53,041 bases of DNA from assembly GCA_028287465.1 (NCBI GenBank), contig JAQBPO010000025.1, positions 1 to 53,041 on the forward strand. Reading direction: 5' to 3'. Shown here in pieces: positions 8,886-43,063 of this stretch. Position numbers and translations under genes: made by a program. Position 1 is the first letter of the stretch. Each line of letters opens with the position of its first letter. This DNA is from Fibrobacterota bacterium. Lineage in GTDB: Bacteria > Fibrobacterota > Fibrobacteria > UBA11236. A model generated the notes under the pieces. That model ran no database searches, was not told the DNA's origin, and saw nothing but the letters and a program-made list of their open reading frames with translations.

Positions 8886-9941
8886 ATGCGCGCATCGTTC
8901 ATCCTTGCATCGTTACTGGCCCTGACCCTGGCCGGCTTCGAGCCGATTGCCGCGGCCGAACGGATCAAGACGCCCACGGGGGATCTTCGTACGGCGACCT
9001 TGTCCGACCTGAAGCCCCATTCCAGTTCGAGCAAGACCTACAACGAATTCTGGACCTACCAGTTCTTCCTGGACGGAAACGTCCAGGCCGTCCTGAACTT
9101 CTCCCGCGTCAATCTGGGCAGCTTCAAAGCCCCGGTCTGCGGCGCGGATTTCACCTTGCTGGGATTCAAGGGAAGGAACTATTCCGTGGCGCGCGAGTAC
9201 GAGAAGAGGAATTTCGTGTTCACGGACTCGAATCAGGGGTTGCGCGTCCACGAGAAGATCTGGTTCGATGGAACGCTCCCGGAAACCCACCATGTCCGTT
9301 TCGCCACCACCAAGAAGGAGGTTTCCTATTACCTGGACCTGACCTTCACGGATATCCTGCCCGGCAAGGTCTGGGGCGACGGCATGTTCCGGTTCGGCGC
9401 TTCGGACGCAATGGGGATTTTCGTGCATATCCCCTCCGCCAAGGTGACGGGCCGGCTCGCCATCAATCAGGATACGGTGGCGGTGAGCGGCACGGCCTAC
9501 ATGGACCATACCTTCCAGACCGATCTGGCGCCGGCCCTGGTCGGGGCGGGTTTCCGGTATGTGACCCAGGGCGGGAGCCTGGAAACCGGCTACCTGATGG
9601 ATCCCGCGGGCAAGTTCGAAAGGATTCCCGTAGGCTACGGGCTCCGGAATACGGGCGGGACCATGACCTTGCTCAAGCCTGCGGCCATGAAGGTCGTTTC
9701 GGCCAACCGGGCCCTGGGCGCCAGGGTCGCGACGGTCCTCGAGATCCAGTATCAGGACGGCAGCAAATCGACCGTTCGCCGTTCCGAGGATCGCTTCCAG
9801 CAATCAACCTTGCATGAATTCAGCGGCTTCTCCAAGATTGCCATCAAGGGCTTCATGGGCGGGGAAATCCTGACCTTCAAGGGCCTCGGAAAGCTCAACG
9901 GCTCCCAATCCGTCGCCTACAACTACTTCTCGGTGGAGTGA
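8886..9941 (+). CDS. Exported protein, possibly lipocalin-like (CrtC/AttH/Svf1-type)
   Basis: 351 aa with a Sec signal peptide (MRASFILASLLALTLAGFEP, cleavage near AAA-E). ATG 8886 is chosen because it begins the signal peptide and has GAGG about 12 bases upstream; an ATG at 8829 would add a 19-residue tail before it. The mature part is rich in beta strands. A VSGTAYMDHTF segment (about residues 202-212) resembles the G-x-x-Y-x-D-H motif of the CrtC/AttH/Svf1 double-lipocalin families, which bind or hydrate hydrophobic ligands. This link is weak. An alternative is an unrelated periplasmic beta-sandwich protein. Confidence 0.65.
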   Translation: MRASFILASLLALTLAGFEPIAAAERIKTPTGDLRTATLSDLKPHSSSSKTYNEFWTYQFFLDGNVQAVLNFSRVNLGSFKAPVCGADFTLLGFKGRNYSVAREYEKRNFVFTDSNQGLRVHEKIWFDGTLPETHHVRFATTKKEVSYYLDLTFTDILPGKVWGDGMFRFGASDAMGIFVHIPSAKVTGRLAINQDTVAVSGTAYMDHTFQTDLAPALVGAGFRYVTQGGSLETGYLMDPAGKFERIPVGYGLRNTGGTMTLLKPAAMKVVSANRALGARVATVLEIQYQDGSKSTVRRSEDRFQQSTLHEFSGFSKIAIKGFMGGEILTFKGLGKLNGSQSVAYNYFSVE

Positions 9942-9992
9942 TCCGGCGCTTTACCTCCGGAGCGGCTGAAGGCGCCTGGACGCCCGGCAGCA

Positions 9993-11042
9993 TCATTCGT
10001 CCTTGGGTACCGGTGTCCTTGCGACGACGCCTTTTTGCGTGCCGAACCAGACATCCCCATCCTTGCCGGCCATCACGCAGTAGACGAACCGGGACTGGAT
10101 CCCGCTGGTGTTGTTCTTGTTGAAGAGCCGCCAGGCCGTACCGTCGAAGCTCGCCGCCCCCCCTTTAGCCGCGACCCAAAGCCTTCCGGACCGTTCCACG
10201 CTCAAGCTGTAGACCTGCTCGGAAGCGATTTCCCCCAGGTCGATAAGGCCCTTGTAGGTGGTCCAGGCATTGGCCGAAAGCTTGGCGACCCCCATCTGGG
10301 TGCCTACCCACTTGATTCCATTGGGCGCCACGGAGATCCAGGTGATGCTGTTATGGGGAAGGCCGGAATTGGTATTGTCCTTGGTGAACTGGGTCCAGGT
10401 CGAGCCCGTGAACCGCACCAGGCCGGCGATGGTCCCGATCCATTTGTCCCCGGAGGAATCCAGAGCGATGGCCGTGACCATCTTATGGGGCAGCCTGCCG
10501 GATATCCTGTCGGCGCTGTAAGTGGTCCAAGAGGAACCGCGCAGCATGGCGAACCCGCTCTTGGTGCCGAACCACCTTTCGTCCTTCCCTATGGCCAGGG
10601 AAGTGACGAAGTTGTCCGGCAATCCGCCCGAGGTATTCTCCTTGGTGAAGTGGATCCAGGACCCATTGGAATAACGGCTCACGCCGCCTTCCGTGGCGAC
10701 CCAAAGATCCCGGTTCTCGCCGATGGCCAACGCCGTGATGGCGTTGGAGACGAGGCCCTTGGCCGTATTCTCGACGGTGAAATTCTGCCAATCCCCGATT
10801 TGGGACAGGCGCGTCAGGCCCTTCTTCCCCGCGAACCACTTATTGCCCTGATCGTCCGACACCATGGCGGTGATCTCGGGATCGGGAAAGCGGCTGAGGT
10901 CCTGCAGCGTCCAACGGAACTCCCCTTCATTACCGGAAGCGGAAACCTCCGACGCGGAGAAATGCAGGGCGGATGCGATGGCCAACGCCAGGGAAACCAG
11001 GGAACCGAGGGAAGGGAACGCATGGATTCGGGTGGATCTCAT
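9993..11042 (-). CDS. Exported seven-repeat beta-propeller protein (two-component-regulator-propeller type)
   Basis: 349 aa with an N-terminal signal peptide (about 1-36). Seven copies of a W-[FVI]-[GA]-x-x-x-G-[LVF] unit can be counted (WFAGKKGLTRL, WVATEGGVSRY, WFGTKSGFAML, WIGTIAGLVRF, WVGTQMGVAKL, WVAAKGGAASF, WFGTQKGVVAR), each about 40 residues apart with LP..VT.IA in between. This fits one seven-bladed propeller. The same repeats form half of the sensor region of Bacteroidetes hybrid two-component systems, but no membrane or kinase part follows here, so it is a free periplasmic or secreted propeller. It lies 42 bases after the 736-aa exported protein gene on the same strand. Confidence 0.85.
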   Translation of the reverse strand: MRSTRIHAFPSLGSLVSLALAIASALHFSASEVSASGNEGEFRWTLQDLSRFPDPEITAMVSDDQGNKWFAGKKGLTRLSQIGDWQNFTVENTAKGLVSNAITALAIGENRDLWVATEGGVSRYSNGSWIHFTKENTSGGLPDNFVTSLAIGKDERWFGTKSGFAMLRGSSWTTYSADRISGRLPHKMVTAIALDSSGDKWIGTIAGLVRFTGSTWTQFTKDNTNSGLPHNSITWISVAPNGIKWVGTQMGVAKLSANAWTTYKGLIDLGEIASEQVYSLSVERSGRLWVAAKGGAASFDGTAWRLFNKNNTSGIQSRFVYCVMAGKDGDVWFGTQKGVVARTPVPKDE

Positions 11043-11084
11043 GGATCTGAATGTAACAATTTCGGCCTGCCGCGCTGCGCGGGT

Positions 11085-13295
11085 CTAGGGACCGGGAGCC
11101 GCGCCCGTGACGATTTTCCGGCGCGGATTCCACCATTCGCGGAAGTTGGACAGGCAATACCCTCCCGTGGAAGGGTTGAAGACGTACATGTTACCCAGCC
11201 CGTCCGAAAGCGCGACTTTCCCTTTCCAGGGCGCGGTCGTCTCCACCTGGAACAGGGGGTTTCCCGCCTCGCTTCCGGATAGGAATCCCGCCAGTACCGG
11301 AAAGGTCTTTTCGGAGGGACGTTCCCCGACCCACGGATACGGAAACGGCAAGGTGACGGGAGGCGCCCGGGATGAGTCCGTAATGAGGGAAGGCTCCTCC
11401 ACCCGCACGATGCCTTCTCGTTCGCCGTCGTAACGGGAGTTCAATTGGATACGGGCGCCCGAGAAATCCACGTAGGTGTAACGGCGCGGGCCCAGGGGCC
11501 ACCGGGCCTTGGGGGCGTTGTTGGCCAAGGTCCTTTTGCGCAGTTCGTCCAGGGACGCCACCTTCCCCGTATCGATCACCTCGATGGCCCCGCGCAGGTA
11601 TTTCTGGTACCCCCATTTGAGATAAGTCTTCGAGGGACGCAATCGGCTCAGGATGACATAGACTCCCGCGTCGGAACGATCCACGAAACGGAAATCGAAA
11701 TCCCGCGTCACGTAGGTTTCCCCCGGCCCGGGCCACCCCGCCGGCACCTGCTGAGGCCATTCCCCGCTGTTGAACGCATCCACGGGCGTGTACCCGTACA
11801 GGAAGTTCCGATGGATGGCCATGTTGTTGGCGCGCCATTGGGAACCGCGGAAATGCAGGATATCCTTGACCTCCGAAGGCCTTTCCTTGCGCGGATCCAG
11901 GATCAGGGATCCGGAGCGCGTGATGACATCGTAGACCCACGGCGCGTCGCTGAACCAATAACGGTAGGTGGGGAAATTGGGGCCCGCATAGGTTTCGTAC
12001 CTGCCTCCCGCGGTGAGAAGGAAATGCCGCGACCCATAATAGATTTCCGTCGCCCGCCTGCGGGATCCCTTCCCGGCATATGCGGAACGGATCTCGGCAC
12101 GGTATTCGGCCGGCCGATCACGCATGTAGGCCAGAATGGGCGCAGGGACACGGTACCTGAGCACGGCGGAATACAGGGCCATGGAGGCATGGGCGACATG
12201 GGAATGCCACAATCCCCTGCGGGAAACGGGGTCCCAGGCGAAGGCCCCCGACTGCATCCCGAAAAAACTGCAGGCCGCGTCATTCTCTATCAGGCCGTTT
12301 TCGTCGTAAACCTCGGAGGACCGCCGGAACGGGCCGTAGCGGATGGCATCGTAGCTTTGGAAGGCGAATACGGCGGACAGGTAATCGAGAAGGCACCCCG
12401 CGCCATCCACCATGGCGGAATCATGCGCGAAGGAATAGAGGTTGTCCAGGGCATGGATGGTGAACCGCTGGTAGATCTGGGCGTTGAATTCGAAGAACCC
12501 CTTGCGCATGGTCTGTTGCATGACCTTGAGGAGCAGGGTCTTGAGCGAACCCTGGCTGTTGTCCATGCCTTCGCCGGATTGAATCAGGGAATCCCGCAAG
12601 GCGATCAGCTGCGGGAGCTTCCGTCCGTTCTCCCATATCAATTGGTTGGTCAGGAAACGCGACGATTCCGTCATGAAGAGGTGATTCTCCGTTTCCGGAA
12701 CGCTCACGAAGACCACATCGAAAAAGGCCTTGGGGGTCTGCCCCCAGGTGCGGGCCACGTTCTTTATCAGGTGGATCAAGGTGGCGTCCGTGAGCAGCAG
12801 GCGATCATCCTGGAACAACCCCATCAAGGAGGTGCATCCGAGGAGGGACATGTCGAAATCGCCCTGGTCGTATCCTGGGACGGGAAGGCTGGTGCCGATG
12901 AAGCCGAGCGGCCTGATATCCCCGTCCACCACGTACTTCTGGAGGGCCAGGCCCGTCTGCCTGCGCGCCTCGGGAGTGGACCGCCGGGCGATGGTCATGA
13001 GCGCGATCCACTCCTGCCATACGCGCATGCCGTCATGCCTGCGGGACCATTCATGCACTCCGCGGTTCAGGTCGACCCGATGCTTCCACGACTCGAGGAT
13101 GGACGGCAGGTTCCGTTCCACCGGATCGATTTCCGCGAAGGTGGGGCCTTCCGTGAACCTGGAGGTTTCGCTGACCCTGGCGGGATTCCTGATTGGAGGC
13201 GTGTCCGACCCGGCATCCGCCCGTGGCTCGCCCGCTTCCGTCCGGCCCGGGAAGGCCATGAAGGCAAGGAGGATCAGCAATAGGCGCAAGGGCAT
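11085..13295 (-). CDS. Large exported protein of unknown function (736 aa)
   Basis: The start at 13295 gives a clear signal peptide (MPLRLLLILLAFMAFPGRTEA); longer in-frame versions put this segment inside the protein. The first half (about 60-400) looks mainly helical. The second half (about 400-730) is Tyr/Trp-rich and strand-like. This helical-barrel plus beta-sandwich order recalls polysaccharide lyases and related enzymes, but no catalytic motif can be assigned and the comparison is inference. It is probably co-transcribed with the propeller protein that follows, and lies divergent from the GT32-like gene, so a role at the surface or in glycan metabolism is plausible. Confidence 0.7.
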   Translation of the reverse strand: MPLRLLLILLAFMAFPGRTEAGEPRADAGSDTPPIRNPARVSETSRFTEGPTFAEIDPVERNLPSILESWKHRVDLNRGVHEWSRRHDGMRVWQEWIALMTIARRSTPEARRQTGLALQKYVVDGDIRPLGFIGTSLPVPGYDQGDFDMSLLGCTSLMGLFQDDRLLLTDATLIHLIKNVARTWGQTPKAFFDVVFVSVPETENHLFMTESSRFLTNQLIWENGRKLPQLIALRDSLIQSGEGMDNSQGSLKTLLLKVMQQTMRKGFFEFNAQIYQRFTIHALDNLYSFAHDSAMVDGAGCLLDYLSAVFAFQSYDAIRYGPFRRSSEVYDENGLIENDAACSFFGMQSGAFAWDPVSRRGLWHSHVAHASMALYSAVLRYRVPAPILAYMRDRPAEYRAEIRSAYAGKGSRRRATEIYYGSRHFLLTAGGRYETYAGPNFPTYRYWFSDAPWVYDVITRSGSLILDPRKERPSEVKDILHFRGSQWRANNMAIHRNFLYGYTPVDAFNSGEWPQQVPAGWPGPGETYVTRDFDFRFVDRSDAGVYVILSRLRPSKTYLKWGYQKYLRGAIEVIDTGKVASLDELRKRTLANNAPKARWPLGPRRYTYVDFSGARIQLNSRYDGEREGIVRVEEPSLITDSSRAPPVTLPFPYPWVGERPSEKTFPVLAGFLSGSEAGNPLFQVETTAPWKGKVALSDGLGNMYVFNPSTGGYCLSNFREWWNPRRKIVTGAAPGP

Positions 13296-36363: not shown

Positions 36364-36502
36364 TCGGAATCGGGCGAATGGCTTGCGTTGCCGGCCATTC
36401 CTTTTGGAATTCTTGGGATCATCGTAAGGTTTATTTTCCTCAATCCACTTGAAGCCCGCGACCGGGCAGACTAGGTTTTCCTCCGCGCCGACCGGAGGAA
36501 AT

Positions 36503-37756
36503 ATGATTCGCTTGTTGCTGTTAGCCCTGTGCGTTGAAATGGGTTTTGCCCAAAATCGCGGCTTGTTGGACCCCGTTTTCCCCGTCCGGGCCGTCCATAT
36601 TTTCGCCGAGTCCCAGGATTACGCCGTTTCGGATGACTTCCTGAAGCGGGCGTCCCTGAACGGTTTCAACTACGTCATCCTGGAATGCGCACTGGATGGG
36701 ACGGATTGGGATCGAACCACGGGAAAGGTCAGAACCACAAAAACCACGGGCAAAACCTTACGCCTGAAGATGAAGGAGGCCTTCCAGAAGGTGGATCGTT
36801 ATGGAATGAGGCTGATACCGGAGTTCCAGACGGCCGACGGCCATTCAAGGCATTGGGACGTGGCGAATGCCAGCATTGCATGGAACGTGATCGGTCCGGC
36901 GGGCGTTTATGAAAGTTATTGCACTCCATATGCTCCGGACGCCCCGATGGACCTGAGTTTCGATGAATTGATTACAACCATCCGCAACGGATTCAAGGAT
37001 GCGGCGCTCCCCTATCCCCTTGAATACATCCACATTGGGATGGATGAAGCCGTGAGGAATATAGGGAACCCGGTCGTTACCACCATCATGATCGGCCAAT
37101 GCACTCCCGATAGGACCTACCTGAACACTTTCGATGCCACCAAAAACGGCTTCGATAGGACGGAATTGGAAAACGGGATCCGCTCCCTGATTGCCCTCCA
37201 TATCGATCGTCGTACGGACAGGATCAGGACCATATGCAATGCGACGGGCTATGGATACGCGACGAAAATGATGATCTATGGCGACATGCTCGATCCCCAG
37301 CATAGCGGCGGCCAACGTTACCTTACACCCGTTCCCGGCAACCTCATGGTGGCCACCGACGGCGCGCTGAACAAGGTTGCGGCGGTAACGCGTCCTAATG
37401 TCGTCTATTCGCCCTGGATGTATCCGAGCGACGATTACCCCTACTATTCCGGGAACGACTACGACACGTACAATACCTTGTCGCACTTCAAGGCCCAGGG
37501 CGCGAAAGTAGCCTTTGCGCATGAAATCGGGGATGATTGCATATTCAGCGATGGGGTGGGCGGAGGCCAGATGCGGAGGCAGAACCAGTTCAAGGAATGG
37601 CTTTTCAATTCCCAACTCCCCGAATTCAGAAACACGATTGTAGGATATGTGGCGGCCCCGTGGTGTGCCTGGAGTTCCACTTCCCCTTCCATCAGCTTCA
37701 AGACCCTGGAATTCCTTTCCAACGAGACCACCTATCTAGTTCCATTCAACAATTGA
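36503..37756 (+). CDS. Exported GH20-like glycoside hydrolase
   Basis: 417 aa with signal peptide MIRLLLLALCVEMGFAQ; ATG 36503 has a good GGAGGA ribosome binding site. The mature protein looks like a TIM barrel. LNGFNYVILEC (52-62), YGMRLIPEFQTADGHS (100-115, compare the GH20 PEID.PGH strand) and EYIHIGMDEA with Asp181-Glu182 (the catalytic Asp-Glu pair of GH20) occur in the right order. Beta-N-acetylhexosaminidase activity is a reasonable guess, but the usual N-terminal GH20b domain is absent, so the substrate may differ. The gene and its follower are visibly more AT-rich than the surroundings, perhaps acquired. A small exported protein gene follows after 11 bases. Confidence 0.65.
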   Translation: MIRLLLLALCVEMGFAQNRGLLDPVFPVRAVHIFAESQDYAVSDDFLKRASLNGFNYVILECALDGTDWDRTTGKVRTTKTTGKTLRLKMKEAFQKVDRYGMRLIPEFQTADGHSRHWDVANASIAWNVIGPAGVYESYCTPYAPDAPMDLSFDELITTIRNGFKDAALPYPLEYIHIGMDEAVRNIGNPVVTTIMIGQCTPDRTYLNTFDATKNGFDRTELENGIRSLIALHIDRRTDRIRTICNATGYGYATKMMIYGDMLDPQHSGGQRYLTPVPGNLMVATDGALNKVAAVTRPNVVYSPWMYPSDDYPYYSGNDYDTYNTLSHFKAQGAKVAFAHEIGDDCIFSDGVGGGQMRRQNQFKEWLFNSQLPEFRNTIVGYVAAPWCAWSSTSPSISFKTLEFLSNETTYLVPFNN

Positions 37757-37767
37757 CAGGAGATACG

Positions 37768-38130
37768 ATGCGATTCCTTTCCAAACTCTTCATACTCCCA
37801 TTTTTAACCTTGCTGGCTATTTCCGCCAAACCGGTTTCGGCCGCAACCGGCAATTTCGAGTTGAATTCCTGCTCGCAAATCGAAATGTACGACCAGGCCG
37901 GGTCGACAAGCAGCGTAATCCGGATCGCGAATTGGAATTGCGGTGGAGCGGGGACTGGCGGAGTGCAGGCCGAATTGTACCAGAAGGACACCACACCCGG
38001 TTACTTCTCGCTTGTGTACAATGCGCTCAAGGATTATAGCTTCAGGAACAGCAGTGGCCGCATGTTCGTGTATTGGGACAATGCTTCCGGCTACACAAAA
38101 ATCATCATGGTCCTGGTCCGCAGGACCTAG
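37768..38130 (+). CDS. Small exported protein after the GH20-like gene
   Basis: 120 aa. The signal peptide (MRFLSKLFILPFLTLLAISA, cleavage near SAA) is followed by a beta-rich, Asn/Ser/Gly-containing domain with two Cys (NSCSQ and NWNCGG) that could form a disulfide. I recognise no family. An AGGAGA ribosome binding site precedes the ATG. It is 11 bases from the GH20-like gene, so both are probably expressed together; it might bind a carbohydrate or support the enzyme. Confidence 0.7.
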   Translation: MRFLSKLFILPFLTLLAISAKPVSAATGNFELNSCSQIEMYDQAGSTSSVIRIANWNCGGAGTGGVQAELYQKDTTPGYFSLVYNALKDYSFRNSSGRMFVYWDNASGYTKIIMVLVRRT

Positions 38131-38205: not shown

Positions 38206-40776
38206 TCAGGCCGCCGATGCGTCCGTCTTCTCCACTTGCACCTCGATGCCGGCATCCACCCCATCCGTAGCGGCCTTCTTCTTGCCCCGTCCCTTGAATT
38301 CCCGCGGGGGGAACTCGAAGGAGATCTTCCCTTCCTTGGAAAGCTTCAGGTAGGCGTCGAAGAACCGGCGCGTCTTGGAGGATTGGAATCCTTTGATCAG
38401 GTCCGTCCGTTCCAGGGAGAGCAGACGCTTGATGACGTCCCGGTCCAAGGTCTTGCCCAGGATCATCTTGTTGATCTTCAAGCCCTTTTTGGCGTCCCCC
38501 GCCAGTTGGCTTTCGGAGATGTAACCCGTCAGGGTCTCGTAGACCTTGGTATTGTCCACAGGCGAGATGCCGATGGGCTCTTCCTTGGACAGGTCCAGGG
38601 GCTGCCCATCGGGGCCGGAAGCGGTATCGTCGAAGACGAACTCGACCTTGTTCTTATCGTTGATCTTGAGGACCGCCGTGAAGGGTTTCCCCATCTTGCT
38701 GCGGAATCCCTGGAGCGGGCCGATCTGGCGTTTCTCCAGGAGATCGATGACCTCGGTCTCGGACATCTGGCGGCCGCCGAGCACCTTCCGGATGAGCAGG
38801 GTCCCGTCCTCGGATTCGTAGCGGGTCAGGGTCTCGAACATCTTCTGCCCGTCGATGGGGCTCTTGAAGGGCGCCAAGGTCTTGAGCTTGTCTTCGTCGA
38901 AGCCCTTGATCTTGCCCACGATGGTGCGGGCGAAGTCCTGGATCTCCTTCATGAACTCAGGGCGCGTATACAGGCCGCGCTCGATGCGGTTCAGCTTCCA
39001 TTCCCAGCCGCCGGTCAGTTCCGGCGAGACGAGCTCTTCGATACCGATGGCGGAAAGCAAGCGCATCAGGTCCGCGCCCTTGGCGGTCGGCACCAGTTCC
39101 TTGCCCTCGCGGACGATGTACTTGTCGTAAAGCAGGCCTTCGATGACGGCGGCGCGCGTGGCCGGGGTGCCCAGGCCGCGCTCCTTCATGGCCTCGGCCA
39201 GATCCTCGTCCTCGACGTACTTGCCCGCGCTTTCCATGAAGGAAAGCAGGGTGGATTCGTTTAGGCGCGGCGGGGGCCGGGTGGCATCCTGGCGCAGCTC
39301 CACTTCCTTGGCGAAATATTTCGAACCGGTCTTCAGGGCGGGGAGGATGGCTTCCTCCTTCTTGTCGATGCCGTAGATGGCCTTCCAGCCCGGCTCTTCG
39401 AGCACCTTGCCTTCGGTGCGGAAATGCTCGCCCTCGACGATTGAAATGCGGGTGGTGTTCAGGTAGCGCGCCGGCGGGAAGAATACAGCCAGGAACCGCT
39501 GCACCACGGCCTGGTAGATCTTGCGTTCCGGTTCGGAGAGTTCCCCGGGCATGACATTGGTGGGGATGATGGCGTGATGGTCGGAGACCTTGGTTTCGTC
39601 GAAGATGCGCTTGTCCATCCGGACGAAGTTCTTCTCCAAAGCCTCGGTGGCGAACTTGCCATACTCCGACTTCTTCAGGTTCTGCATCAACTCCTTGGCG
39701 ACGGCCAAGTAGTCGTTCGGCAGGTAACGGCTGTCCGTTCTCGGATAGGTCAGGACCTTATGGCGCTCGTACAGGGCCTGGGCCAGGCCCAGGGTGTTCT
39801 TGGCCGAGAACCCGAAGCGGGCATTGGCCTCGCGCTGCAGGCTGGTAAGATCGTAAAGCGACGGGGCGCCCTGGGAAGAAGGCTTCTGGGTGTCGGTGAC
39901 ATCCGCGGGCTTGCCTTTGCATTTGGCCTGGATGGACTTGGCGCGCGCCGCGTCCCAGATCCGCTCCGGCTTGGTATCGTCCTTCTCATCGCTCTTCTTG
40001 AATTCATGATCGAACCACCGGCCCTGGTAATCCGACTGGTCCCCCTTGGCGCCCACGATGCCGAAATCGCCGTGGACTTCCCAATAGTCCTTGGGGATGA
40101 ATTGTTCGCGTTCCCACTCGCGGCGGACGATCATGGAAAGGGTGGGCGTCTGCACGCGGCCGCAAGGAGTCAGGAAAAAGCCGCCCCATTGGGATTTGTA
40201 ACCGGTGAGGGCGCGCGAGCCGTTGATCCCCACGAGCCAATCGGCTTCCGACCGGCACATGGCGGCCTGGGCCAGATTCTGCATTTCGCTATCGGTGCGG
40301 AGGTTCCGGAAACCCTCTTCGATGGCCGTCTTGGTCATGCTCTGGAGCCAAAGACGGCGGATGCCGGCCTTGACGGGCTTGGTTTCGGAAACGTACTGCA
40401 GGATATACCGGAAGATCAACTCCCCTTCGCGGCCGGCGTCGCAGGCGTTGATGACTTCCTTGATGTCCTTGCGGCGGAGCAGCTTGGCCAGGGTGGAAAG
40501 TTGCGCCTTGGTCTTGGGAAGGGGGGCGATCGCGAATTTTTCAGGGATGATGGGCAGGTTGTCCAAGGTCCATGCCTTGAGGCGCTCGTCCATATCCTTG
40601 GGATTGGCGATGCTGACCAGATGGCCGATGGCGAAGGATACCACATAGGATTCGCCTTCGTAATACGAGTCGTGCTTCTCGAACTTTCCGGGAAGGGACT
40701 TGACGATATCTCCAGCGACGCTGGGTTTTTCCGCGATAATAAGGGTTTTGGTGGCTTCTACGGCCAAATCAGCCAT
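38206..40776 (-). CDS. topB: DNA topoisomerase III (type IA)
   Basis: 856 aa. It decatenates and relaxes single-stranded regions of DNA. The Toprim domain opens KTLIIAEKPSVAGDIV and carries NACDAGREGELIFRYI (acidic metal triad). The catalytic tyrosine is in LTYPRTDSRYLP. The gate domains extend to about residue 600. Two C-terminal topoisomerase repeats (about 615-725 and 735-830, pattern GFRSKMGKPFTAVLKI..KVEFVF and GFQSSKTRRFFDAYLKL..KISFEF) replace zinc fingers. The short acidic/basic tail ends in Ala. It may be transcribed together with the upstream recombinase-fold gene (171-base gap). Confidence 0.95.
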   Translation of the reverse strand: MADLAVEATKTLIIAEKPSVAGDIVKSLPGKFEKHDSYYEGESYVVSFAIGHLVSIANPKDMDERLKAWTLDNLPIIPEKFAIAPLPKTKAQLSTLAKLLRRKDIKEVINACDAGREGELIFRYILQYVSETKPVKAGIRRLWLQSMTKTAIEEGFRNLRTDSEMQNLAQAAMCRSEADWLVGINGSRALTGYKSQWGGFFLTPCGRVQTPTLSMIVRREWEREQFIPKDYWEVHGDFGIVGAKGDQSDYQGRWFDHEFKKSDEKDDTKPERIWDAARAKSIQAKCKGKPADVTDTQKPSSQGAPSLYDLTSLQREANARFGFSAKNTLGLAQALYERHKVLTYPRTDSRYLPNDYLAVAKELMQNLKKSEYGKFATEALEKNFVRMDKRIFDETKVSDHHAIIPTNVMPGELSEPERKIYQAVVQRFLAVFFPPARYLNTTRISIVEGEHFRTEGKVLEEPGWKAIYGIDKKEEAILPALKTGSKYFAKEVELRQDATRPPPRLNESTLLSFMESAGKYVEDEDLAEAMKERGLGTPATRAAVIEGLLYDKYIVREGKELVPTAKGADLMRLLSAIGIEELVSPELTGGWEWKLNRIERGLYTRPEFMKEIQDFARTIVGKIKGFDEDKLKTLAPFKSPIDGQKMFETLTRYESEDGTLLIRKVLGGRQMSETEVIDLLEKRQIGPLQGFRSKMGKPFTAVLKINDKNKVEFVFDDTASGPDGQPLDLSKEEPIGISPVDNTKVYETLTGYISESQLAGDAKKGLKINKMILGKTLDRDVIKRLLSLERTDLIKGFQSSKTRRFFDAYLKLSKEGKISFEFPPREFKGRGKKKAATDGVDAGIEVQVEKTDASAA

Positions 40777-40947
40777 CCTTCCGGGTGCAGTCGCAAACCA
40801 ATATATATAAGTATGACCGGCACTAACAACCGGGGAACGGGACGCGGGTCACAAGGGATGCGGCGCGGCCGAGGTGATTCGGGATTGCGGAAGAGCCGTC
40901 CGGGAAAGGACCGGAGGGCCCCCGATCAGGGGATGGAGCGCAGCGGG

Positions 40948-41712
40948 TCAGAGGACCGCGCCGGTTTCCGATCCTTCAATGATGCGATGGAGATCCGCGC
41001 TGATATGCAGCTTGAGCTTGTCCCAATACCGCACCAGCACGTCCGTCACGAGCCTGGTATTGTCGGTCTTCTCGCCCTTGATGCGGAAACCGAGGGCGCG
41101 GAACATGTTGAGGTGATCGTAACCTCCATGTACCGCCATGTATTCCTTCTCCGTGAGCTTGACCGTGTCCTTGAGCTGGAAAAGGGCCTTGATGAGCAGC
41201 TCGGCATAACGCTCGTCCTGGAGCATCCCGAAAAGCTTGGTCCACAAAGGTTTGATGCGCACCTTCTCCGACCTTACGGCTATTTCCTTGACCGGGTCCG
41301 GATGGTCGAGGCCGAGGATTTCGCCGGCCATGGACATGATGCGGGCGCATTCCGCGGAAGCGGTGCTGGTCTTCCAGATGCTGACGTGGATTTCCGTGCG
41401 CTTGGAATCGAAGGTATCGCGGAGGAAGGTCATGACCTCGCGGGAATCCCTGCCCACGCGGCTCACGTCATGGATGACGATATGGCCGATGCCTTCCTGC
41501 ATGGCCCTGGTGAGCAGGCGCTCCATTCCCGAGCGGACCTTCCCCTTGATATGGGGACCGACGTCCGAAAGGATGTCGATCACTTCCAATCCGTTGATGA
41601 GGCAATAGGTCTGCAGTTCGACGGACTGGGATTCAAGGGAATGCTCACGGCCTTCGTCGGGCCAGACGGAGCAGTACAGCAGGGCTTTCGAATTCTTCAG
41701 AGGCTTTTCCAT
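40948..41712 (-). CDS. Serine-recombinase-fold protein with altered active site
   Basis: 254 aa from ATG 41712. The N-terminal half follows the resolvase/invertase pattern: KALLYCSVWPDEGREHSLESQ, SDVGPHIKGKVRSGMERLL and VIHDVSRVGRDS align without gaps to YxRVST..SLExQ, D.G.SG...RPGL and LDRLGRS. However, the catalytic Ser aligns with Trp17, the preceding Arg with Ser15, and the Asp before RLGR with Ser. Recombinase chemistry is thus unlikely. The C-terminal ~140 residues do not resemble the large recombinase or zinc-ribbon domains. No inverted repeats or cargo genes surround it. It could bind DNA as a regulator; that is inference. Confidence 0.7.
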   Translation of the reverse strand: MEKPLKNSKALLYCSVWPDEGREHSLESQSVELQTYCLINGLEVIDILSDVGPHIKGKVRSGMERLLTRAMQEGIGHIVIHDVSRVGRDSREVMTFLRDTFDSKRTEIHVSIWKTSTASAECARIMSMAGEILGLDHPDPVKEIAVRSEKVRIKPLWTKLFGMLQDERYAELLIKALFQLKDTVKLTEKEYMAVHGGYDHLNMFRALGFRIKGEKTDNTRLVTDVLVRYWDKLKLHISADLHRIIEGSETGAVL

Positions 41713-41923
41713 GAACGCTTTCCCGCTCCTTGAGCGCAGAACCGGAGGATTAGCGCGGCTTTTGCCGACTTTGACTTGCGGTTGACGATGGATAAATATA
41801 AACAAAACGGCGTGCCGAATCATGCCCTATCCGGCCCTGGATCGGACCCGAGGTGTCGGATTTTTTTCCGACTTGTTGAATTTCCGTCGGTTTACTTGGA
41901 TAATTTTAGGTAAATCAAAACCA

Positions 41924-43063
41924 ATGCCAAAAGACCGCGGCATCCGCGCCCTGCTCATCACCACCGACTACCCCCCCGATGTGGGCGGCTTGCAGACCTA
42001 TTCCTACCGCATCGCCCGTGACCTGCCCGGAGGCCGGTTGGCCCAGGTGCTTGCGGGAAGCGATCATATCCGCCAAGCCTTGCCCCCGCCTGCAGCCGGC
42101 GTGGGACTTGCGATTCGGAAAGGCCGTTCCCGGTGGCGGGCATTCTGGTGGAGCCTTTGGAGCGTTCCGTATTTCCGCTTCCGATGGGGCACGGATTTCC
42201 TGCTGCATATGCAATGGACCACGGCCATTCCATCCATGATCCTGAGCCGCCTCGGGGGCGCGCATTACCTGGTCCTCGTCCACGGCGCCGAGCTGATCGA
42301 TCCTGAACGGTTCCTCGTGCGCATCCTCAAGCGGATGGTTCTCTCGAGGGCGGATGCGGTCGTATCCGGTTCCGCGCACACCGCCGAAATCGTGGCCCAA
42401 CTCGGTATCCGCTGCCGCCGCCTGGAAATCATCCCTTACGGCAATCCCCTTGAAGGCGAATCCGAGAAGTTCCGGCGCCCAACGGCCGGTTCCGATGGGA
42501 CCCCCCGGCTCCTTTGCATGCACCGCCTCGTGCCTCGCAAGGGAACGTCCTTGCTCTTGGAGGCGCTGGCGGAAATGCGTTCCGTTCCCTGGACCCTTGA
42601 TATCGTAGGGCGCGGGGAGGAAGAGGAAAACCTCCGCCAACGCGTATCGGCCCTGGGCCTTGAGGACCGGATCCGTTTCCTGGCCCCTGTGGATGAAGCG
42701 GAGAAGATCCGCCTTTTGGGGGAAGCCACCCTATTCATCCTTCCCAGCCTGCCCCCGGTCAGCAATAATCACGTCGAGGGACTTGGCCTGACCTTGCTGG
42801 AAGCGCAAAGCCTGGGCCTGCCCGTGCTCGCCTCCCGTACGGGAGGCATTCCGGAGGCTATCCAGGAAGGGTTGACGGGCATGTTGTTCCGCGCGGGCGA
42901 CCGTGAGGATCTCCGCGAGCAACTCATCGCCATGCTCGCATCCCCGGATCGGCTCAAGGCCATGGGCCGGGCCGGGCCGGAATGGATCCGCGGGCATTTC
43001 AGTTGGAAAGCGGGGCTTGCCAGGCTCGGCGCGTTGATGGATGAGGTCGCGCGCGCCCGGTAG
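41924..43063 (+). CDS. Family 4 glycosyltransferase
   Basis: 379 aa. Opening IRALLITTDYPPDVGGLQTYSYRIARDL and closing EGLGLTLLEAQSLGLPVLASRTGGIPEAI (E-x7-E) are typical of GT4 enzymes, with RLLCMHRLVPRKGTSLLLEAL marking the donor domain. ATG 41924 is used because the 34 extra residues of a longer version do not match the family start. It stands apart from the cluster at 13-18 kb. A hydrophobic helix is not evident. Substrate unknown; lipopolysaccharide or exopolysaccharide synthesis is plausible. Confidence 0.85.
   Translation: MPKDRGIRALLITTDYPPDVGGLQTYSYRIARDLPGGRLAQVLAGSDHIRQALPPPAAGVGLAIRKGRSRWRAFWWSLWSVPYFRFRWGTDFLLHMQWTTAIPSMILSRLGGAHYLVLVHGAELIDPERFLVRILKRMVLSRADAVVSGSAHTAEIVAQLGIRCRRLEIIPYGNPLEGESEKFRRPTAGSDGTPRLLCMHRLVPRKGTSLLLEALAEMRSVPWTLDIVGRGEEEENLRQRVSALGLEDRIRFLAPVDEAEKIRLLGEATLFILPSLPPVSNNHVEGLGLTLLEAQSLGLPVLASRTGGIPEAIQEGLTGMLFRAGDREDLREQLIAMLASPDRLKAMGRAGPEWIRGHFSWKAGLARLGALMDEVARAR

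Follow-up and report, generated by a model that had tools for sequence, protein, structure and literature searches.

The known chemistry of serine recombinases is impossible without the serine nucleophile and its adjacent arginine; three arginines (the equivalents of R60, R85, and R88) contact phosphate, and in the intact enzymes helix E carries the dimer interface. Adopted transposases and integrases are usually retained for their chemistry. A review of how prokaryotes recruit genes from mobile elements describes serine recombinases used for active DNA inversion and excision, and in its treatment of these names no inactive one (PMC8987985). In IS607, changing the serine of OrfA to glycine abolished transposition (PMC6188088). 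Within the open-licence literature on inactive or domesticated serine recombinases, no bacterial chromosomal case was found, and the closest precedent found is the vaccinia virus protein F16, a serine recombinase predicted to lack catalytic activity (Senkevich, Koonin and Moss 2011, cited in PMC11980589 and PMC4304020).

Here we describe a gene in a 53,041-nucleotide Fibrobacterota contig (the whole stretch analysed, hereafter the window; genome size 5.8 Mb) that encodes a relative of these enzymes, which we call the pseudo-recombinase. Its features are as follows.

40948..41712, minus strand: pseudo-recombinase gene, from M1 at 41712 to the stop at 40948 (stop included), 254 aa; reading frame open in six species at 73-89% identity
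41356..41691, minus strand: N-terminal serine-recombinase-like catalytic domain, residues 8-119 (PF00239, hhalign, VIA-align)
41650..41676, minus strand: replaced catalytic motif YCSVWPDEG, residues 13-21, Arg to Ser15 and Ser to Trp17; Y, C, S, V, W, P, and G invariant in six species, neighbouring codons variable
40951..41262, minus strand: basic, helical C-terminal domain spanning residues 151-254 and without known relatives; 80 of 100 positions (151-250) invariant

Catalytic Domain

The pseudo-recombinase matches the Pfam Resolvase family (PF00239) over residues 22-119 with an E-value of 5.6e-9 and a score of 36.7 bits, above the cut-off of 23.3 bits, and a profile-profile alignment (hhalign) that set the six orthologues against seven intact recombinases from Fibrobacterota gave a probability of 98.0 and an E-value of 1.9e-13, placing the protein in the superfamily. 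Because the catalytic motif is altered, the Pfam match opens past it, at profile position 12; in a survey of 167 Fibrobacterota genomes the match started at position 10-12 for the six orthologues and at 1-4 for nearly all long matches elsewhere. Weaker profile matches of the N-terminal domain (about 110 residues) were to IS607 transposase, CcrB models, and phage integrases. Phage and plasmid searches with the pseudo-recombinase returned remote catalytic-domain matches or none, and a defence-system library gave no match. No other PF00239 protein turned up in the genome of the window, so that an intact paralogue to act as partner was not seen there.

The hhalign register is ungapped at the motif and pairs Y13-C14-S15-V16-W17 with Y-x-R-V-S. 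In an alignment of 45 sequences, Arg and Ser occupy the two catalytic positions in 39 of 39 other Fibrobacterota recombinases (a set that leans to high-scoring members and in which a few loci duplicate a gene already included), and Ser and Trp occupy them in all six family members. Both the nucleophilic serine of Y-x-R-V-S and the catalytic arginine two residues ahead of it have thus been lost, and no other serine aligns with the nucleophile position in the sequence or profile alignments. These results bear out the first-pass annotation, in which an alignment by eye had placed Ser15 at the catalytic arginine and Trp17 at the nucleophile in a gap-free register. Tyr13, Cys14, Ser15, Val16, Trp17, Pro18, and Gly21 are invariant across the six species and the codons around Trp vary synonymously; invariant positions make up 10 of 13 at residues 9-21, against 54 of 114 at residues 6-119.

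Other parts of the active site have been retained. The two arginines of the last motif (R-x-x-R), correctly noted before as kept, are R85 and R88, which are invariant in all 45 aligned sequences, and together with the central arginine, R60, they are invariant in all six orthologues. Serine at the Asp position of LDRLGRS had been counted as a third loss, but this proved to be ordinary: Ser is found there in 20 of the 39 intact relatives, and the six orthologues themselves vary between S, G, and N, which makes the residue no sign of inactivation. Judged by the chemistry of the family, the pseudo-recombinase is very probably non-cutting.

An AlphaFold2 model built from the six sequences had a mean pLDDT of only 68. 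In VIA-align comparisons, its N-terminal domain (about residues 8-113) showed the catalytic-domain fold, matching IS607-like TnpA (6dgc; Z 11.8, 98 aligned, rmsd 2.8), TP901-1 integrase (3bvp; Z 11.5, 100 aligned, rmsd 2.6), and gamma-delta resolvase (1zr2; Z 8.2); Foldseek E-values for the model were weak by themselves (best 0.0049). The long helix E is interrupted by an LDHPDP-like stretch, and its Glu-Arg motif, present in most of the intact sequences aligned, is missing, which makes the usual dimer or tetramer doubtful.

C-Terminal Domain

The C-terminal domain of about 100 residues is mostly helical and basic (pI about 9, net charge +2 to +3); the N-terminal domain is slightly acidic and the whole protein near neutral. 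Modelled alone, it was all helical with a pLDDT of 68, and a fold search with this model gave nothing above Z 5.1; the model is too weak for the fold to be called new. The C-terminal half had no family or fold match, Pfam giving nothing beyond PF00239, and the earlier statement that it is not a known recombinase domain holds. The C-terminal recombinase and zinc-ribbon domains of large serine recombinases are absent, and ancestry from a PF07508-like recombinase domain was rejected (hhalign probability 0.3 to recombinase-domain segments). Several other matches to the domain were discarded: those in purH and IMG/VR, the latter antisense to a phage tail-region gene, as chance; those to alphaRep/HEAT proteins as deriving from one short repeated motif; those to DnaD_N (best E 0.0084) as confined to some 24-31 residues in a single helix and falling below the cut-off; and those to GRDB and PA2781 as noise.

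Conservation Within the Genus

Each of the six species in the genus has a single copy of the pseudo-recombinase gene, with 73-89% identity to the protein of the window. Searches of the remaining 161 Fibrobacterota genomes did not find the gene and returned only remote matches to the catalytic domain; relatives outside Fibrobacterota were probed by short peptide patterns only. Ser15 and Trp17 are fixed in all six species, no orthologue having the normal serine. Among pairs with unsaturated dS, dN/dS was 0.08-0.27 over residues 6-130 and 0.03-0.09 over residues 151-250, ratios that are rough given that several dS values exceed 1. Together with the invariant positions, these low values indicate a protein under purifying selection, the C-terminal half being the more constrained.

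Genomic Context

The pseudo-recombinase lies between topB and a divergent glycosyltransferase gene, from which a 214-bp spacer (41713-41926) separates it, with the following neighbouring genes and promoter-like elements.

41927..43063, plus strand: family-4 glycosyltransferase gene (PF00534, E 3.7e-34), divergent partner; adjoins the pseudo-recombinase in six of six species, absent at the sister-genus locus
38206..40776, minus strand: topB-like type IA topoisomerase gene (PF01131, E 1.6e-117), next gene downstream on the same strand
41795..41804, minus strand: conserved TGTTTATATT element upstream of the pseudo-recombinase, candidate extended -10 promoter; identical in six species, rest of the spacer variable
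40801-40810, minus strand: conserved TTATATATAT element upstream of topB, topB's own element
41876..41904, plus strand: glycosyltransferase promoter TTGAAT-N17-GATAAT; -10 region within a block invariant in six species

Gene order is the same in six species, namely aroD, a PD40 propeller protein, EIIA, the divergent pair of glycosyltransferase and pseudo-recombinase, and topB, followed by a methyltransferase and a pseudouridine synthase in the five species whose contigs extend there. In the three genomes of the sister genus examined, which are much smaller, EIIA directly adjoins topB and the order is otherwise unchanged. The glycosyltransferase and pseudo-recombinase therefore form a two-gene block that was either acquired by the genus or lost from its sister. 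The first-pass annotation had pointed to topB as the neighbour; the two genes do adjoin, but the link is one of neighbourhood only, and topB was rejected as a functional partner since the sister genus keeps it and its neighbours without the pseudo-recombinase. From its position and conservation, the TGTTTATATT element is probably an extended -10 promoter. The fixed synteny, with the purifying selection described above, supports the view taken in that annotation that the protein has been repurposed.

Some further observations concern the surroundings of the pair. Homologues of the glycosyltransferase in the sister genus are remote (31-33% identity) and lie in other places. Between the methyltransferase and topB of the window, at 36449-38130, are two plus-strand ORFs of 435 aa and about 127 aa with no Pfam match; nothing at that place matches them in the other four species with contig cover, and they are probably a species-specific insertion. 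In one species the topB match (9215-11686 of its contig) contains an in-frame TGA, which may be an assembly error or reflect a shortened C-terminus.

Possible Roles

We see about an even chance that the pseudo-recombinase is a former serine recombinase of a mobile element that has become fixed in the chromosome, has lost its catalytic residues, and acts without cutting, likely as a multimeric nucleic-acid binder. A serine recombinase gene, probably of mobile-element origin, would have been fixed in the chromosome of the genus ancestor; the serine nucleophile and catalytic arginine would have been lost, and an unrelated C-terminal domain acquired or kept. The recombinase-like domain, retaining its fold and three phosphate-facing arginines, would most likely join the basic C-terminal domain in binding nucleic acid, with the protein in multimeric form and in a structural or regulatory role. 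The kept arginines and the basic C-terminal domain suggest such non-cutting binding; weighing against it are the lack of a recognisable DNA-binding domain, a near-neutral protein overall with a C-terminal charge of only about +3, and, for the multimer, the broken helix E, and the explanation as a whole has to reckon with structure models that are only moderate (pLDDT 68).

The main rival, which we regard as rather unlikely, is that the fold survives solely as a module for scaffolding or protein-protein contacts and that the C-terminal domain functions without nucleic-acid binding, for example as a partner of a neighbouring membrane, sugar, or signalling system. Such a pure scaffold would suit a protein whose most conserved part is a C-terminal domain with no DNA-binding family above threshold, whose helix E is altered, and whose fixed divergent neighbour is a glycosyltransferase, the pair being gained or lost as one block. 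It fits less well with the basic character of the C-terminal domain and with the invariance of the three phosphate-contacting arginines though other active-site residues have changed.

That the protein still cuts DNA through another nucleophile, such as Ser15, which lies on the same strand two residues before the usual position, is quite improbable. Ser15 is invariant at the active-site arginine position and R60, R85, and R88 remain, but because Ser15 stands in for the catalytic arginine, the normal nucleophile and the arginine are both gone; the motif Gln has been replaced too, and the Glu-Arg motif of helix E is missing. We know of no such nucleophile shift among serine recombinases.

It is very improbable that the N-terminal domain belongs instead with that of HflX, a ribosome-associated GTPase, and acts on ribosomes. 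Several HflX structures matched the N-terminal model with Z 10.2-10.6, no more than about 1.5 below the top-scoring serine recombinase (Z 11.8), and these similar scores of the two kinds of domain against the model (residues 6-113) hint at a shared topology. However, the HflX families gave no sequence match at E up to 10, whereas Resolvase and the intact recombinases match significantly; no GTPase domain was found in the 254 aa, and the shared alpha/beta topology accounts for the structural score. A decaying mobile-element remnant with a recent inactivating mutation, as the lost active site and the absence of the block with the gene from the sister genus might suggest, is refuted by the orthologue comparison and has a negligible chance of being correct, since the gene is open and collinear in six species under strong purifying selection, with its promoter-like element and synteny conserved.

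Taking up again the reading of a non-cutting nucleic-acid binder, we propose tentatively, at a probability somewhat short of even, that the pseudo-recombinase is a vertically inherited, bacterial chromosomal factor with an undescribed C-terminal domain that organises DNA or regulates genes without cutting in one Fibrobacterota genus.

Comparison With Known Systems

With the PF00239 catalytic domains of TP901-1 integrase (3bvp), gamma-delta resolvase, and Hin, the pseudo-recombinase has in common the fold, the Y-x-x-V strand, the SLESQ motif, and R60, R85, and R88. It differs from these enzymes in having Ser and Trp in place of the catalytic Arg and Ser, a broken helix E, and a C-terminal part without any known DNA-binding or recombinase domain. 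The best NCBIfam match was to IS607 TnpA (NF033518, E 3.2e-8), which was also the top structural match (6dgc, Z 11.8), tied with 3bvp, and in which helix E is likewise split (PMC6188088). The NF033518 score is nevertheless 33 bits, against a family cut-off of 110 bits, and the architecture is different: the extra domain of the pseudo-recombinase is C-terminal, and the catalytic domain begins at residue 8 with no N-terminal DNA-binding domain. Moreover, the catalytic serine that is required for IS607 transposition is missing (PMC6188088).

The likeness drawn here to vaccinia F16 is one of description, in that both would be superfamily members with predicted loss of activity that have been retained for a different role. 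As described in the papers cited above, F16 is the product of a eukaryotic-virus gene and is found in the nucleolus, whereas the pseudo-recombinase is encoded by a bacterial chromosomal gene and has a C-terminal domain of its own. If our reading is correct, bacteria can put the serine-recombinase fold to a new use that involves no cutting, with the replacement motif itself conserved. The gene also brings to light a domain of about 100 residues that is strongly conserved and has no known relatives. The only comparable case found is a poxvirus protein of obscure role, and although the group is represented here by metagenome assemblies, a bacterial counterpart to F16 could make the question of what such proteins do testable.
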